Shown here: positions 34,154-63,729 of the stretch, piece after piece | How the letters are laid out: every line of letters begins with the position of its first letter | Numbering within the stretch: the first letter of the stretch is position 1 | Assembly: GCA_017513905.1 (NCBI GenBank) | Contig: JAFWMR010000010.1 | Span: 124,001-188,000 of the forward strand | Direction of reading: 5' to 3' | DNA length: 64,000 nucleotides | Origin: Candidatus Saccharimonadota bacterium | GTDB lineage: Bacteria > Patescibacteriota > Saccharimonadia > Saccharimonadales > Saccharimonadaceae | Notes under the pieces: model-generated | The model's input: only the letters and a program-made list of their open reading frames with translations | The model's database searches: none | Told to the model about the DNA's origin: nothing | Translations under genes and position numbers: made by a program

Positions 34154-35173
34154 ATGGAAAACAAGGAATTCTTCTGCCCCTGCGAGATCTACACCAGCCA
34201 CAAACCCTACGGGCACTGGCTGAACGACACCAAAAAGCAGGAAAGGAAACAGGATGTCAAAAAACTGGCCAAGGCCCTGATCGAAGTCGCGATAATCATC
34301 GCCATCATCATCGGGATCTTCGGCCTGCTGTCCTCGTTTAGCGTTGCCAAAGCCGAAAGCTACCTCGATGAGTACACCGTCGGTTTCCCGTCCTTCTGGC
34401 AGCACGATGCCACCGTCGTCACATCACTCCAGGAATCCCTGGTACTGTACGGCGAAAACGTTGAGATTGACGGCAAGTTCGGTCCCAAAACCGGACAGGC
34501 AGTCAAAAACCTCCAGAAAAAGTACGGCCTCAATCCGAACGGTATCGTCGACGATACGTTCGCCTGGATGTTCCAAGTGCAGGGTTGGCCCTTCAATACC
34601 GGCTACACCATGTATTACATGGCCAACCTGGAGCTGATTTACCAAAACAGTGACTACGAGGATCTAATCTACATCACCCTCGGTGGTCGCGGATATGATC
34701 CGAGTAATCCAGAGGCAACAGGCTCCCACCTGTGGCTTTTCCGAGATGGAAAGTTAATTGCCGACTCCGCCTGCATCACGGGCAACGAGTCGAAAGGCTA
34801 TTTCACGCCTCTCGGTACACGCCACATCACCGGCCGTAAAGACGAAGAAGTCGGGAAATATTCCACCTACTACTATCTGTTGCATCTGAACGAAAAGATC
34901 TACATACACAGTTTGCTCGAATACTTTGAACCCGAAAAAAGAGACCACCAAGTCCTTGGCGCTCACATGAGCGACGGAAGCATCCGGGTTCCCAAAGACT
35001 TCGCCGAATGGCTGTACGAAAATATGCCTGACGGCGTAACAGTGGTCATCGATGACCGGGCTTTCAGCCCATACGGCGCCCCTGGCTATGAACACCTCCT
35101 CGAAGAAGAAAGTCCTTTCGCCGAATATGTAGATTGGGAACACCAATTCATCCGTTACGGCGAAGAACTTTAA
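34154..35173 (+). CDS. L,D-transpeptidase (YkuD)-like protein with PG-binding domain; catalytic Cys replaced by Ser
   Basis: 339 residues: cytosolic start, one TM (about 40-62), peptidoglycan-binding domain (about 85-145: VTSLQESLVLYG, GKFGPKTGQAVKNLQKKYGL), then a YkuD-like domain (about 165-315: GSHLWLFRDGKLIADSAC, FTPLGTRHITGRK, YIHSLLEYF, LGAHMSDGSIRVPKDFAEWLYE). The family signature is SHGC(I/V)R with Cys as nucleophile; here it reads SDGSIR, Ser codon AGC at 34979-34981. It may be inactive or use another mechanism. SD GGGAGGG, own terminator; CTG-rich codon use unlike neighbouring core genes. Confidence 0.8.
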   Translation: MENKEFFCPCEIYTSHKPYGHWLNDTKKQERKQDVKKLAKALIEVAIIIAIIIGIFGLLSSFSVAKAESYLDEYTVGFPSFWQHDATVVTSLQESLVLYGENVEIDGKFGPKTGQAVKNLQKKYGLNPNGIVDDTFAWMFQVQGWPFNTGYTMYYMANLELIYQNSDYEDLIYITLGGRGYDPSNPEATGSHLWLFRDGKLIADSACITGNESKGYFTPLGTRHITGRKDEEVGKYSTYYYLLHLNEKIYIHSLLEYFEPEKRDHQVLGAHMSDGSIRVPKDFAEWLYENMPDGVTVVIDDRAFSPYGAPGYEHLLEEESPFAEYVDWEHQFIRYGEEL

Positions 35174-49243: not shown

Positions 49244-49606
49244 ATGCTCGCGATTCGCATGCAGCGTAATGGCCGAACACATACACCTGTGTATCGGATA
49301 GTCGTCCAAGAATCACAGCGTCACCCTCTTTCTGGACGCGTTGTGGCCGAGGTCGGCTCTTTCAACCCAGATACTAAAAAACTTGTCCTCGACAAAGCAA
49401 AGGTCGAGTTCTACCTCAAAAATGGCGCTCAACCTTCTAGCCGTGTCGCTCTCATTCTAGAGAAGAATGGCGTCAAGCTTCCATCTTGGTACAAGAAGGC
49501 ACCAGCCAAATCTGCCAAGGCTAAGCACGCCGACAAGCTTCGTAAGAATCAACCAAAAGAAGCTCCCGCCGAGGAAGCTCCTGCGGAAGAAACACCTGCT
49601 GAATAA
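49244..49606 (+). CDS. rpsP: 30S ribosomal protein bS16
   Basis: 120 residues; core MLAIRMQRNGRTHTPVYRIVV ... GRVVAEVGSFNPDTKKL ... KNGAQPSSRVALIL (shown in parts) is typical of S16. A Lys-rich then Glu/Ala/Pro tail (about 85-120) extends it. rpsP normally leads khpA-rimM-trmD; here a terminator, a serpin gene and a coiled-coil gene come before khpA, and rimM/trmD are not seen. Confidence 0.95.
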   Translation: MLAIRMQRNGRTHTPVYRIVVQESQRHPLSGRVVAEVGSFNPDTKKLVLDKAKVEFYLKNGAQPSSRVALILEKNGVKLPSWYKKAPAKSAKAKHADKLRKNQPKEAPAEEAPAEETPAE

Positions 49607-49613
49607 CAGAAAA

Positions 49614-49641
49614 AATAAGCCCTTTCCGGGCTTATTTTTTT
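49614..49641 (+). terminator. Terminator of rpsP
   Basis: AATAAGCCC/GGGCTTATT stem with a 5-nt loop followed by a T run. Confidence 0.9.
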
Positions 49642-49685
49642 ATGGTACAATTAAGCAAAAGCACTATAAACAAGGTCATATTTTT

Positions 49686-51752
49686 ATGGATGATAAAAAA
49701 CTAAACACTCCGCCCGTTCCGGAAGAACCGATCGACGAGCCAATCGACGAACCAGAAGAAGCGCCCGTCAACGAAGAGCTGGTTGACGAACCCGCTGAAA
49801 AGGAACCGGTCGAAGGGCCCATAGAGGACGGCCCCATCGATGACGAGCCAATCGACGAACCAGAAGAAGCGCCCGTCAACGAAGAGCTGGTTGACGAACC
49901 CGCTGAAAAGGAACCGGTCGAAGAATCCGTGGAAGAAGACCAAGTTATAGTAAAGCCAGAGCCAATTGATGACGAATCCGCAGATGGCAAAGAGCATGAA
50001 ACTACAGAAGCGGATCCAAAAGAGTTATCCGGAGAACCAACCGAACCAACTGGACCGCTCAACCAAGACCTCATTGCCTCCGCAGAGGCAGAAGCCCCAG
50101 CCGAACAGTCCCCAGTATTTCCAACCGATACAAATCAGAAGCCTAAGTCCAAAAATCCACTTATGTTCGCCATGATTGCACTCCTTGTTCTCGCTATTGG
50201 CGGTACTGGTGTTTGGTACTTTTTGTTCCGCGATAAAGGACAAGTTTCTCAAAGCCAACAACCAGTTAAACCGGCCGAGAATGAGCCTGCAGAGAATCTA
50301 ATTCGTGTCGACGACAAACTATCCGACTTCGACCTATCATTCTTACGCTTAGAAAATAATCAAGATAACCTTATTTATAGCCCACTTTCCATAAAATACG
50401 CACTAGCTATGCTGTCAGACGCCTCTGTAGGGGAAACAAAAGAACAGATCGATGCTGTCATCGGCGATTATACGCCTAAAGCCTACCTCAACAGCACCAA
50501 TCGCTCACTCGCTAATGGCATGTTTATCCGTACCGACTTCGCCGATAGCGTCAAATCCTCTTATATAGATACACTTCAGAATAAATACTATGCTGAGGTT
50601 ATCCATGATACGTTCGACACTCCAGACAACGCCAATAAATGGGTCGAAGACAAGACTCTCGGTATCATAAAAAACACCTTTAGCGCAAACGAAATAAACA
50701 ATCAAACTGATTATGTTCTTATCAATGCGCTTGCTATTGATATGAAATGGAAAAACAAACTCCAATGCGCAGACGACTACGACGTAGCTGAAGGGCAAAG
50801 AGTCCCTTGTATTTCTTACGAAGCATACTATCCACACACCAACTATTTTGACTACGTAACCAGGGTTTTCGATGAAAATAGTTTTCCTAAAATATCTTTC
50901 AACGGCAAAGAAAATACCAACTCGGCTAAAGTTGCAGCCACTTACTTTAAATATGACCTAATCGCAGAAAATGGTGGCGAAGAAGCCGTTAGAAATACAG
51001 TTCAACAAAAATACAACGAATGGTTGGCCGACGTTCAAAACAATCCTAGCGAACATCCTTACGCAGACACAAACTTTAATCTCGATATGTACATGGAAGA
51101 AATTTCAAAGAATTACAACAACAACGCGGTGTCCTCTGACTTTTATTTCCTTAATACGGATGCGGAAAAAGTATTCGCTAAAGATCTTCAAGAATACGAT
51201 AGTTCTACATTTCAATACGTTGGTATCATGCCGACATCGTCTACTCTTGTCGACTACATAAATAATCTTACTGCCGAAAAGATATCCTCACTTATCTCTA
51301 ATCTTAAAGACGTTTCCGAAACAACTAACTTCAAAGAAGGTGTAGTTACTAAACTCAACGGTTATATACCATTCTTTAAGTTTGACTTTACCATGGAAAA
51401 ATTCATGAGCAACCTCGAGAGTCTCGGCATAACCAACGTCTTCTCTGGTGAGCATGCAGATCTTTCCAACATGATTACATTCAGCGACACTCTTCCAGTC
51501 AAACCGCATATTAGCATTGCTATTCATAAAGCCGACATTGATTTCTCAAACGACGGTATCAAAGCCGCTGCCGTCACTGCATTTGGCGGTATGGGTGCTG
51601 GCGGAGGAGAATATTTCGATTATAAATGGGATGTCCCAGTCGAAGAAATCGACCTCACCTTTGACAAACCATTCCTCTTCCTCATCCGTGACAAGGGAAC
51701 TGGGGAGGTCTGGTTCGTAGGTACCGTCTACGAAGGTAACGTCGCTGAGTAA
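49686..51752 (+). CDS. Membrane-anchored serpin (serine protease inhibitor family)
   Basis: 688 residues. Acidic Pro/Glu cytosolic N-terminus (about 1-150) with a 36-residue duplication, one TM (about 156-181), then a serpin fold outside (about 208-685). Serpin marks: NLIYSPLSIKYALAMLSDAS, PFFKFDFTMEKFMSNLESLGI, VFSGEHADLSNM, the hinge DGIKAAAVTAFGG at about 622, and FDKPFLFLIRDKGTGEVWFVGTV. The small-residue hinge suggests an inhibitory serpin, but the loop between hinge and FDKPF is about 13 residues longer than in alpha-1-antitrypsin, so P1 cannot be placed. ATG 49686 is the first codon after the rpsP terminator. Confidence 0.9.
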   Translation: MDDKKLNTPPVPEEPIDEPIDEPEEAPVNEELVDEPAEKEPVEGPIEDGPIDDEPIDEPEEAPVNEELVDEPAEKEPVEESVEEDQVIVKPEPIDDESADGKEHETTEADPKELSGEPTEPTGPLNQDLIASAEAEAPAEQSPVFPTDTNQKPKSKNPLMFAMIALLVLAIGGTGVWYFLFRDKGQVSQSQQPVKPAENEPAENLIRVDDKLSDFDLSFLRLENNQDNLIYSPLSIKYALAMLSDASVGETKEQIDAVIGDYTPKAYLNSTNRSLANGMFIRTDFADSVKSSYIDTLQNKYYAEVIHDTFDTPDNANKWVEDKTLGIIKNTFSANEINNQTDYVLINALAIDMKWKNKLQCADDYDVAEGQRVPCISYEAYYPHTNYFDYVTRVFDENSFPKISFNGKENTNSAKVAATYFKYDLIAENGGEEAVRNTVQQKYNEWLADVQNNPSEHPYADTNFNLDMYMEEISKNYNNNAVSSDFYFLNTDAEKVFAKDLQEYDSSTFQYVGIMPTSSTLVDYINNLTAEKISSLISNLKDVSETTNFKEGVVTKLNGYIPFFKFDFTMEKFMSNLESLGITNVFSGEHADLSNMITFSDTLPVKPHISIAIHKADIDFSNDGIKAAAVTAFGGMGAGGGEYFDYKWDVPVEEIDLTFDKPFLFLIRDKGTGEVWFVGTVYEGNVAE
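49734..49924 (+). repeat. 108-bp in-gene tandem duplication (36 codons) in the serpin N-terminus
   Basis: The segment from GACGAGCCAATCGACGAACC at 49734 recurs at 49842 and the copies stay nearly identical for about 80 bp, so the duplication is recent or kept uniform. Confidence 0.85.
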
Positions 51753-61079: not shown

Positions 61080-61105
61080 GTTGGCCGATTTAAGCATAAG
61101 ATATA

Positions 61106-61154
61106 TTGACTAGATCAGTCATATATGCTATAATATAAACCGCAGTTAACTGCG
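61106..61154 (+). promoter_or_regulatory. Cassette promoter with palindromic 5' stem-loop
   Basis: TTGACT 61106-61111, 17 nt, TGC-TATAAT 61129-61134, then CGCAG TTAA CTGCG (61141-61154) at the expected RNA start. Confidence 0.75.
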
Positions 61155-61180
61155 ATCTTTAAAATGGGGGTGGAATCAAC

Positions 61181-61828
61181 ATGAAGAACTGGGAAAAGTA
61201 TCTGAAACTGGCAAAAGAACGGCCCGACCTGTTCACATCCGAAGGACTCGAAGTTATCCTGGACGAAGAAACTATCAAGAAGTACGAAGAGGAAACTGGC
61301 CGGGAAATCGGCATCGTCTACGAAAGCAAGTGGCGGTACCTGCTGGTGGATCTGGTACGGTGTTCTACGGGCAAGCTGTTTGCCTACGAGAGGGTGGTAC
61401 CGACGAAAACTGGCGGCGTAGCCGTGTTGCCGGTATATCATGGCAGCATCGTGCTGATCCGCGAATATCGCCATCCCATCCAGAAGTGGTGCTTGGAAAT
61501 CCCGAGGGGATTTGGCACACCCGGAGCTTCCGCGCTCCAGAACGCCGCCAAAGAGCTCTACGAAGAAACCGGCATCGAAGAGTGCAAGCTGGTTCACCTT
61601 GGACAGCTCAATACAGATACTGGACTGACTTCCGACCAAGTAGACCTGTTCCTGGCTGACGTCAAGGAACTCAGCATCTCCCTCACCGGGAAAGAAGAGA
61701 CCGAGGCTATCTCTCATATCCAGATCATTCCCTTCGAAAAAGTTCAGCAGATGATCGCCGATGGCGAAATCACTGACGGCTTTACGCTGTCTGCGCTCGG
61801 CATCTGGCAGGTCACTTACAATAACTAA
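61181..61828 (+). CDS. NUDIX hydrolase, ADP-ribose pyrophosphatase-like, with altered box
   Basis: 215 residues. N-terminal part (about 1-70) unlike any recognised domain, then a Nudix fold: GGVAVLPVYHGSIVLIREYRHP, the box GFGTPGASALQNAAKELYEETGI and QVDLFLAD. In the box the first Glu is Ala and the Arg is Lys, while the metal-binding ELYEE is kept. ADP-ribose hydrolysis is plausible but unproven. SD GGGGGTGG, own terminator, and about half of leucines are CTG (hand count), unlike rpoC next door. Confidence 0.75.
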   Translation: MKNWEKYLKLAKERPDLFTSEGLEVILDEETIKKYEEETGREIGIVYESKWRYLLVDLVRCSTGKLFAYERVVPTKTGGVAVLPVYHGSIVLIREYRHPIQKWCLEIPRGFGTPGASALQNAAKELYEETGIEECKLVHLGQLNTDTGLTSDQVDLFLADVKELSISLTGKEETEAISHIQIIPFEKVQQMIADGEITDGFTLSALGIWQVTYNN

Positions 61829-61842
61829 CACGCACATTGACG

Positions 61843-61866
61843 GCTCCCGCTACGGCGGGAGCTTTT
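61843..61866 (+). terminator. Terminator of the Nudix cassette
   Basis: GCTCCCGC/GCGGGAGC stem with TACG loop followed by TTTTT. Confidence 0.9.
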
Positions 61867-61901
61867 TACATCATATGATTCGGCGACAACCAGAGGTAAA
61901 C

Positions 61902-61977
61902 ATTGACTTTTTATACCGTTTATGCTATAATTAAGATGTAGTTTGATCGCGGCCTAGCCGTAAAACACAGATCAAGC
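61902..61977 (+). promoter_or_regulatory. Cassette promoter with nested 5' stem-loop
   Basis: TTGACT 61903-61908, 17 nt, TATAAT 61926-61931; outer stem GTTTGATC/GATCAAGC (61941-61948 and 61970-61977) enclosing CGGC/GCCG. The promoter part equals 34038-34071; the leader end (CACAGATCAAGCTCGA) matches the leader at 63702. Confidence 0.8.
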
Positions 61978-61996
61978 TCGAAAGGGAGGGTTTAAT

Positions 61997-62254
61997 ATGT
62001 TCGATCAGCTCAAGGAGACCGTAAAAAAGACCGTAGCCAACAATAAGGTCTACAAGGCCACCATGACCATCATCCCTGCGCGCGCTAGCGTCGAGGAAAT
62101 CGCCCAGGCCATTCTCCTGGCCGATGATTATCAGTGTAGCGTCTTTTATAGCAAAGCCAACCTGTTCTACCCCATCAAAAAAGCCATCTTGAATCGCCGT
62201 ATTGGCCACCTGAACTTCTGGACGGCCTGCGCCACCCATGCTATCGACATCTAA
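61997..62254 (+). CDS. Small soluble protein, unknown
   Basis: 85 residues, basic, with TMTIIPARASVEEIAQAILLADDYQ (in parts) giving a strand-helix pattern, and FYPIKKAILNRRIGHLNFW. No TM or known motif. SD AAAGGGAGGG placed 6 nt before the ATG. Own promoter and terminator. Confidence 0.6.
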   Translation: MFDQLKETVKKTVANNKVYKATMTIIPARASVEEIAQAILLADDYQCSVFYSKANLFYPIKKAILNRRIGHLNFWTACATHAIDI

Positions 62255-62275
62255 ATCACCATCTTAGAACCTTTC

Positions 62276-62304
62276 GCCCCGCTCCCCGAGCGGGGCTCTT
62301 TCTT
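62276..62304 (+). terminator. Terminator of the 61997 cassette
   Basis: GCCCCGCTC/GAGCGGGGC stem with CCC loop followed by TCTTTCTTTT; almost the same as the one at 62879. Confidence 0.9.
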
Positions 62305-62357
62305 TTACCTACATACCACATAAGTAATTTAAATTGTCAATCATTACAAAATACTTA

Positions 62358-62423
62358 TTGACATTTTACAAAAAGTATGCTAAAATACAAAAACAATGTC
62401 CTTAATGCTTCACGGCATCAGGA
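62358..62423 (+). promoter_or_regulatory. Promoter and 5' stem-loop of the micro-frame RNA
   Basis: TTGACA 62358-62363, 17 nt, TAAAAT 62381-62386 preceded by TATGC. Stem TCCT/AGGA and ATGC/GCAT (62399-62408 and 62415-62423) with a small internal loop. Confidence 0.7.
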
Positions 62424-62455
62424 GATTGAGTACATATGAGGGAGGAAAGTGAACC

Positions 62456-62482
62456 ATGCGTTTCACATCTGGTTTTATGTAG
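62456..62482 (+). CDS. Micro-frame 1, peptide MRFTSGFM
   Basis: Eight codons, ATG to TAG, with GGGAGG about 10 nt upstream. The codons for F, S, G and F match the second micro-frame at the amino-acid level while third positions differ (TTC/TTT, TCT/TCA, TTT/TTC). A short hairpin AGCG/CGCT overlaps the stop codon and continues past it. Very short, so translation is a hypothesis. Confidence 0.4.
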   Translation: MRFTSGFM

Positions 62483-62547
62483 CGTAACAACGCTTACCAA
62501 ACCTTAATCCACAACGCCTGATCTGGCGCCCTGCAAGGAGGAAAAAG

Positions 62548-62571
62548 ATGTTTGTGTCAGGTTTCACTTAG
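62548..62571 (+). CDS. Micro-frame 2, peptide MFVSGFT
   Basis: Seven codons, ATG to TAG, with a perfect AAGGAGG 6 nt upstream. Similar to micro-frame 1 (F-x-S-G-F-x-stop), and TAGCG followed by a GC(G/A)-type hairpin again comes right after. The perfect SD with no longer frame is hard to explain unless the short frame is read. Confidence 0.45.
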   Translation: MFVSGFT

Positions 62572-62878
62572 CGCATTATCTGCGTAACCCCTCTAGTTAA
62601 GAGGTGTGGGTTAGTAATTCAGTAAATTCAGGCGGCCACAATCGACCAGCCAGATGGCTCTTAGCATAGAGCTTGCCGGGGCTCGTCGTAGGCCCAATGC
62701 CGAATACTGTTTTACTCCTCTACGAATTTACGGCTGCCAGCCAAAACGCCGTGCGTCACCTTATCCACCGCCACATAGAGCCAGCATATTATAGACTGGA
62801 CATATCCGGCAAGGAAAGGTAAAAAAAGACGTCGTCCACAAGAGACGAAATCCAAAAACACCCACTTCCCATTTTTCA

Positions 62879-62904
62879 GCCCCGCTCCCTGAGCGGGGCT
62901 TTTC
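62879..62904 (+). terminator. Terminator of the micro-frame RNA
   Basis: GCCCCGCTC/GAGCGGGGC stem with CCT loop followed by TTTTCC. Confidence 0.9.
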
Positions 62905-62913
62905 CTTAATGTA

Positions 62914-62981
62914 TTGACTTTTTAACACACTTATGCTATAATATAAGTAACTTTAGCAACCCGTGGGAGGGGACCTAAAGT
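62914..62981 (+). promoter_or_regulatory. Cassette promoter with 5' stem-loop
   Basis: TTGACT 62914-62919, 17 nt, TGC-TATAAT 62937-62942, stem ACTTTAG/CTAAAGT (62950-62956 and 62975-62981) whose loop holds GGGAGGGG; a second SD AAGGAGG stands before the start. Confidence 0.75.
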
Positions 62982-63006
62982 ACATTTAAAAAGGAGGCGC
63001 ATCAGA

Positions 63007-63564
63007 ATGCGTACAACCCTCGGAACGCTCACCGTGAACCCCTCAACCAGCAAAGTAGAACTCTCCATCTACGGTGAAAGCGAAATCAGAAACGTCGGCG
63101 TGATCATGGGAATCAAAGAAGCATGTTCCGCAAGCGATCTGACTTTCTTCACCAGCAATTCCGGAAGGATCATCTGGCACATTGACATCAATTCTGATCA
63201 GATGAACCGGCAGTGGCTCATCCCTGCAAGCTCGGTAATCGGCGGCGGAGACGATACCAACGTTTCCGTCTATGCAACCGAAGACCCCAACGTTATCCTT
63301 ATGGATCTGCGTGACTTCGAATCCAGGTATATCGCAATCAATAATCCAAACTGCGACGACAACTACATTATCATCGATCTGTGCGACGACACATTCTACG
63401 TGTTCAAAGATCTTACCAAGTACGACATTTTCCTCTGCAGCTACCCACAGGCAACGTGCCACCTGCCCGTCCCAATCTGGGATAACAAGACTGGCACCTA
63501 CTCCTTCGAGGATGACGCGTGGGTCAAACCCACAATCAAATCGCCCAAACCCGAAGAAATCTGA
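63007..63564 (+). CDS. Soluble beta-rich protein, unknown
   Basis: 185 residues without TM or signal. Many alternating strands (LGTLTVNPSTSKVELSIYG, SGRIIWHIDINS, NVSVYATEDPNVILMDLRDF, NYIIIDLCDDTFYVFKDL) suggest a beta sandwich or barrel; five Cys. AAGGAGG lies 9 nt before the ATG. Own promoter and terminator. No family recognised. Confidence 0.65.
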   Translation: MRTTLGTLTVNPSTSKVELSIYGESEIRNVGVIMGIKEACSASDLTFFTSNSGRIIWHIDINSDQMNRQWLIPASSVIGGGDDTNVSVYATEDPNVILMDLRDFESRYIAINNPNCDDNYIIIDLCDDTFYVFKDLTKYDIFLCSYPQATCHLPVPIWDNKTGTYSFEDDAWVKPTIKSPKPEEI

Positions 63565-63588
63565 CCCGATGCACTTTTCTCAACCCAA

Positions 63589-63612
63589 CCCCGCCCCCAG
63601 GCGGGGTTTTCC
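63589..63612 (+). terminator. Terminator of the 63007 cassette
   Basis: CCCCGCC/GGCGGGG stem with a 4-nt loop followed by TTTTCC. Confidence 0.85.
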
Positions 63613-63637
63613 TTATCGCTAGCCGCCCCGTGCCTAA

Positions 63638-63714
63638 TTGACTGATAAAGGTGTTTATGCTATAATAGAACGCATAGCTTGAATACGGTACTTCCGTAAA
63701 TCACAGATCAAGCT
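63638..63714 (+). promoter_or_regulatory. Cassette promoter with nested 5' stem-loop
   Basis: TTGACT 63638-63643, 17 nt, TGC-TATAAT 63661-63666; outer stem AGCTTGA/TCAAGCT (63676-63682 and 63708-63714) enclosing TACGG/CCGTA. Same nested design and same 3' leader sequence as at 61941-61977. Confidence 0.8.
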
Positions 63715-63729
63715 CGACGGAGGGTTAAC

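Follow-up and report, generated by a model that had tools for sequence, protein, structure and literature searches.

A candidate orphan structured RNA gene, possibly dual-function, in the rpoC-to-Clp-protease interval of a very small Saccharimonadota genome

What might a short stretch of DNA specify when it is bounded by its own promoter and terminator and holds no ordinary gene? The question is raised by a unit of about 510 nt that lies between rpoC and a Clp-protease gene in the very small genome of a Candidatus Saccharimonadota bacterium (0.92 Mb in 23 contigs, 99% complete, with a size and gene content suggestive of Patescibacteria), analyzed here within a 64,000-nt stretch of that genome, termed the window below. 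An earlier sequence-only reading had described a promoter, a 5' stem-loop and a terminator, two micro-frames each led by a strong Shine-Dalgarno (SD) sequence, the second of them a perfect AAGGAGG, a GC hairpin at each stop codon, and no clear long gene. All of these elements were recovered, the two stop-codon hairpins as parts of the predicted fold (Table 1), and the promoter and terminator signals support a separate transcript unit devoid of an ordinary gene. Our best reading, to which we assign a probability of roughly 0.5, is that the unit is an orphan structured RNA gene in an array of variable cassettes; a dual-function RNA, one of the options raised by the sequence-only reading, is kept as a possible form of it.

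Table 1. Signals, frames and predicted structural elements of the unit (window coordinates)
Feature	Position	Strand	Remarks
Sigma-70 type promoter, TTGACA-17-TGcTAAAAT	62358-62386	+	11/12 consensus positions, extended -10
5' hairpin of transcript	62394-62428	+	Helices CAAT/ATTG, TCCT/AGGA and ATGCT/GGCAT, each P >0.9
AGTACATA leader element	62429-62436	+	Common to mRNA leaders genus-wide
Shine-Dalgarno 1, GGGAGG	62440-62445	+	
Micro-frame 1, MRFTSGFM	62456-62482	+	Stop TAG
Multibranch fold closed by AAGTGAACC/GGTTTCACTT	62447-62569	+	Predicted; 62447-62455 with 62560-62569
Helix linking the center of micro-frame 1 with the micro-frame 2 start codon	62465-62470 with 62546-62551	+	Predicted
Hairpin AGCGT/ACGCT	62481-62494	+	Predicted; begins at stop 1
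Shine-Dalgarno 2, AAGGAGG	62535-62541	+	
Micro-frame 2, MFVSGFT	62548-62571	+	Stop TAG
Hairpin GCGCA/TGCGT	62571-62585	+	Predicted; begins at stop 2
Long irregular stem, eight short helices	62613-62716	+	Predicted; P 0.91-1.0
41-codon frame, MPNTVLLLYEF...GKER	62697-62822	+	No good SD, no relative; probably not a gene
Second irregular stem	62754-62831	+	Predicted
Intrinsic terminator, 10-bp stem and T-rich tail	62878-62907 (also delimited as 62878-62900)	+	

The unit is the second of four in tandem, being preceded by an 85-aa gene and followed by a 185-aa gene and a 152-aa gene. All four begin with a promoter of the form TTGACN-17-TGcTAWAAT and a 5' hairpin leader, and G+C-rich terminators lie behind them. 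Across 61101-63670 there are five extended -10 promoters of one type within 2.6 kb, out of eight in the whole window. The genes adjoining the unit are orphans too, having few relatives or none; they had no match in PADLOC and no convincing family in PHROG. In the best syntenic relative (G031; RpoC C-terminus 89% identical, YebC 95% identical) the RNA is absent, and another gene, of 451 codons, separates rpoC from the Clp-protease gene, which marks this interval as a variable spot; a protein related to the 185-aa one at 27% identity is encoded elsewhere in that genome, between yebC and the aminopeptidase gene. Synteny by way of the closest NUDIX relative (G029, 60%) gave no lead, the surroundings being different there. 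A mobile or phage origin was rejected, given the absence of matches in phages, plasmids or IMG/VR and the want of PADLOC or convincing PHROG families among the neighbors. A search for possible RNA targets in the neighborhood gave, apart from terminator stems, no long inverted matches between the unit and its neighbors. Elsewhere in the window, a 761-aa protein with a serpin domain (49467-51752; Pfam E 2.8e-43) seems unusual for a genome so small.

By codon usage the unit is non-coding, unlike its neighbors. With log-odds trained on the genes of the window, all six frames of 62440-62880 score negative (-0.07 to -0.27), as against in-frame values of 0.34-0.37 for the neighboring 85-aa, 185-aa and 152-aa genes and a gene mean of 0.45. 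There is no sense frame of at least 50 codons in the unit, and the longest frame after the micro-frames comprises 41 codons. A long gene hidden by a frameshift was rejected, as no frame carries a coding signal, and a minus-strand gene was likewise dismissed: its 55-codon frame (62761-62928) lies on a strand lacking coding signal and crosses the terminator. The minus strand also has a TATAAT-like match, found again in congeners, which was set aside because in the one congener inspected (L016) it stands away from any promoter-like context.

The predicted fold, in turn, is unusually stable. The 516-nt transcript has a minimum free energy of -172.3 kcal/mol, compared with -137.7 +/- 6.2 for its shuffles (z -5.5); upon exclusion of the terminator z is -3.75 (62393-62865) or -4.5 (62436-62865), and for the 274-nt core alone (62447-62720) it is -3.84, with 0/200 shuffles as stable. 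When the rest of the window was cut into 146 tiles of 430 nt, only one fell lower against its own shuffles than the unit does, namely 34401-34830 (z -5.06), which lies inside an L,D-transpeptidase/peptidoglycan-binding gene; given that a coding tile folds better in this sense, the fold is not by itself proof of an RNA gene. Most helices have P >0.9, including a multibranch domain spanning both micro-frames, both stop-codon hairpins and an irregular 104-nt stem. In this model, the second ATG is paired with internal positions of micro-frame 1, and the nucleotides between the first SD and the first ATG are paired with the end of micro-frame 2. Short nascent transcripts are modeled with the first SD (0.73) and the first ATG (0.93) open, and the complete transcript with the first SD (0.08) and the second ATG (0.01) closed. 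The start sites of the real neighboring genes are also largely closed in the model; hence, accessibility neither discriminates between the readings nor argues against translation.

Analysis of the 5' end points to a kinship with mRNAs. The entire genome has four sites at which AGTACAT stands ahead of an SD; three of them fall within 3 kb at this locus, where they precede micro-frame 1, the 185-aa gene and the SH3 gene. Across the genus, AGTACAT-SD-ATG is present in 89 of 170 genomes, at about 140 sites versus 17 for a reversed control pattern. A -10 box lies upstream in 88 of the 116 distinct cases, and in 71 of these 88 AGTACAT is followed by a T; further, for 104 of the 116, the frame that begins at the best start codon is longer than 60 codons. 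By these counts, the arrangement of hairpin, AGTACATW, SD and ATG is a genus-wide mRNA leader, a new fact from this analysis. The element AGTACATT, situated between transcription start and SD, was located at 62429-62436, 62979-62986, L023:3125-3139 and L034:1501-1519. A second leader class, consisting of a TTGATC stem, an inner hairpin and ACAGATCAAGCTCGA, is seen at the 85-aa and 152-aa genes (61939-61981 and 63675-63717; 43 nt, 77% identical), and a leader similar to this class precedes the relative of the 185-aa gene in G031 (L026:1336-1380). The leader of the unit is one of the few exceptions in the genus in that it opens only eight codons. In one other promoter-bearing exception (L089), a 24-codon frame comes after the same leader, with a 114-codon gene behind it.

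As this leader is shared with mRNAs, the 5' end of the unit is of the mRNA type, and micro-frame 1 stands where a protein normally starts. Such a leader, complete with SD and start codon, hints at an mRNA ancestry and counts against the RNA-gene reading. It also opens the way to the main rival, which we regard as unlikely, namely that the unit is a decayed orphan protein gene that has kept its promoter, leader, SD, start codon and terminator while losing its frame. The leader would have set the start codon of such a gene at 62456, just as it precedes long frames in most other cases in the genus, and both the orphan status of the adjoining genes and the variability of the spot would accord with such a history. 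However, no residual coding signal is left in any frame even as promoter, leader and terminator are intact, and the fold is unusually stable for a neutral sequence.

The place of micro-frame 1 in the genus-wide leader, at its start-codon position, makes translation of this frame plausible and brings up the micro-frames themselves. When both strands of the window were scanned for frames of 4-20 codons with an SD match of at least 5 and a spacing within 200 nt, the pair proved to be the only one of its kind, and when the region was shuffled, 0.8% of the shuffles had at least two SD-led micro-frames, with nested starts counted. The pattern FxSGFx is indeed common to both peptides, with synonymous codon differences. 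Among random pairs of equally long peptides, about 6 per 10,000 share four or more residues, a nominal p of ~6e-4 that is suggestive only, as it refers to a pair picked by eye. At the DNA level, 88 of 2000 shuffles align as well as the two SD-frame units do, and the best alignment is out of register with the frames; tandem duplication of an SD-frame-hairpin unit was rejected on both counts. A combined search for the shared motif and SD yielded one match in the genomes of 84,980 species, in an unrelated Polaromonas contig, and one viral contig in IMG/VR, which is about the chance expectation.

These results bear on the possibility that the unit is a short-peptide mRNA, whose micro-frames encode functional peptides of 7-8 residues with a stalling or signaling role. 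The sequence-only reading had taken the synonymous differences as a mark of selection on the peptides. That claim is not supported: it draws on three codons in one hand-aligned pair, neither the ~170 congeners nor the 393 genomes from the order yielded an orthologue, and the motif with its SD was matched only in the Polaromonas contig and the viral contig. The strong SD at both frames, the shared residues and the location of the first SD and ATG in a leader used for translation elsewhere would all be expected of such an mRNA. Against this, the pair was selected after the fact, an ordinary export signal needs more than seven or eight residues, and more than 300 nt of structured RNA 3' of the frames would be left unexplained, all of which renders this account improbable.

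Still less probable is a leader-regulated mRNA for a 41-residue protein, in which the micro-frames and stems would constitute a translational attenuator. The 41-codon frame ends upstream of the terminator and has the best 40-codon score of the six frames (0.24, as against 0.45 for genes and an off-frame 95th percentile of 0.15), and the L089 case provides a precedent for a leader followed by a short frame and then a gene. However, as a best-of-six value this score is not significant, the sequence upstream of the start is mostly paired in the model, and the frame has no good SD, no PHROG family and no relative in 170 congeners.

Known systems offer partial parallels. Leader-peptide attenuators of the erm, cat and tna type resemble the unit in their SD-led micro-frames, in helices over start sites and in the predicted opening of the second start by the first frame. 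In the unit, by contrast, a terminator precedes the next promoter, at 62914, and no regulated coding sequence was found inside the transcript other than the 41-codon frame without relatives. The GGGAGGAAAG of the unit is superficially like the conserved GAGGAAAGTC of bacterial RNase P RNA; the genome has its true RNase P RNA on a different contig (G000:C12, E 9e-75), with no match at the unit. The dual-function small RNAs SgrS/SgrT and VcdRP (PMC4021124, PMC8672173) are short transcripts, each running from a dedicated promoter to a dedicated terminator, in which one or more short frames are set in a good deal of non-coding sequence, a layout that the signals of the unit would match. They differ in encoding proteins of tens of residues, VcdP being described as 29 residues long (PMC8672173), and in pairing with known target mRNAs, whereas the unit has frames of 8 and 7 codons and no relative. 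Short peptides encoded by bacterial small RNAs are well documented (PMC5521070); hence, a dual-function reading would also fit a known kind. GOLLD, ROOL and OLE (PMC12286853) are, similarly, RNAs of several hundred nucleotides with stable multi-helix predicted folds and no protein, but form families with many members, unlike the unit, which was found in a single genome.

The search against RNA families suggested earlier as a check was run on 4227 Rfam families and gave no match at the gathering threshold and none at E 10, i.e., no known family was found that would account for the unit. ARAGORN reported no tmRNA or tRNA in the window. BLASTN with the unit detected no relatives, whether in ~170 congeners, in 393 genomes from the order or among phages and plasmids, and a covariance model of the 274-nt core had no match in the 170 congeners, single-sequence models being of limited reach. 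Searches of the literature for non-coding RNAs of this group turned up nothing of relevance. Against the RNA-gene reading, then, no relative was found and hence no covariation backs selection on the fold.

The reading of the unit as an orphan RNA gene accordingly draws on its promoter, leader and terminator, its non-coding composition, its unusually stable predicted fold and its lack of detectable relatives. From these we infer that the unit gives rise to a transcript that functions as an RNA, in all likelihood a regulatory one, and probably specific to the species. Given the genus mRNA leader at its 5' end, ribosomes may initiate at 62456 and terminate after only eight codons. Since the second ATG is modeled as paired with the inside of micro-frame 1, translation of that frame would open the start of micro-frame 2, and frames coupled in this way could make for a dual-function or ribosome-sensing RNA. 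The fullest version of this idea, which we consider a long shot, is a species-specific dual-function RNA with no downstream gene in cis, whose two coupled, matching micro-frames serve as a ribosome sensor: the translation of each would unmask the start region of the other, and the state of the ribosomes would set the fold of the structured tail.

If the unit is an RNA gene, these reduced genomes would retain structured RNAs of orphan type among arrayed protein genes that are orphans as well. Such RNAs would use the same promoters and mRNA leaders as the protein genes and be missed by both gene callers and Rfam. The occurrence of AGTACATT between the 5' hairpin and the SD is a genus-wide and testable feature, and it offers a way of listing transcripts of this kind.
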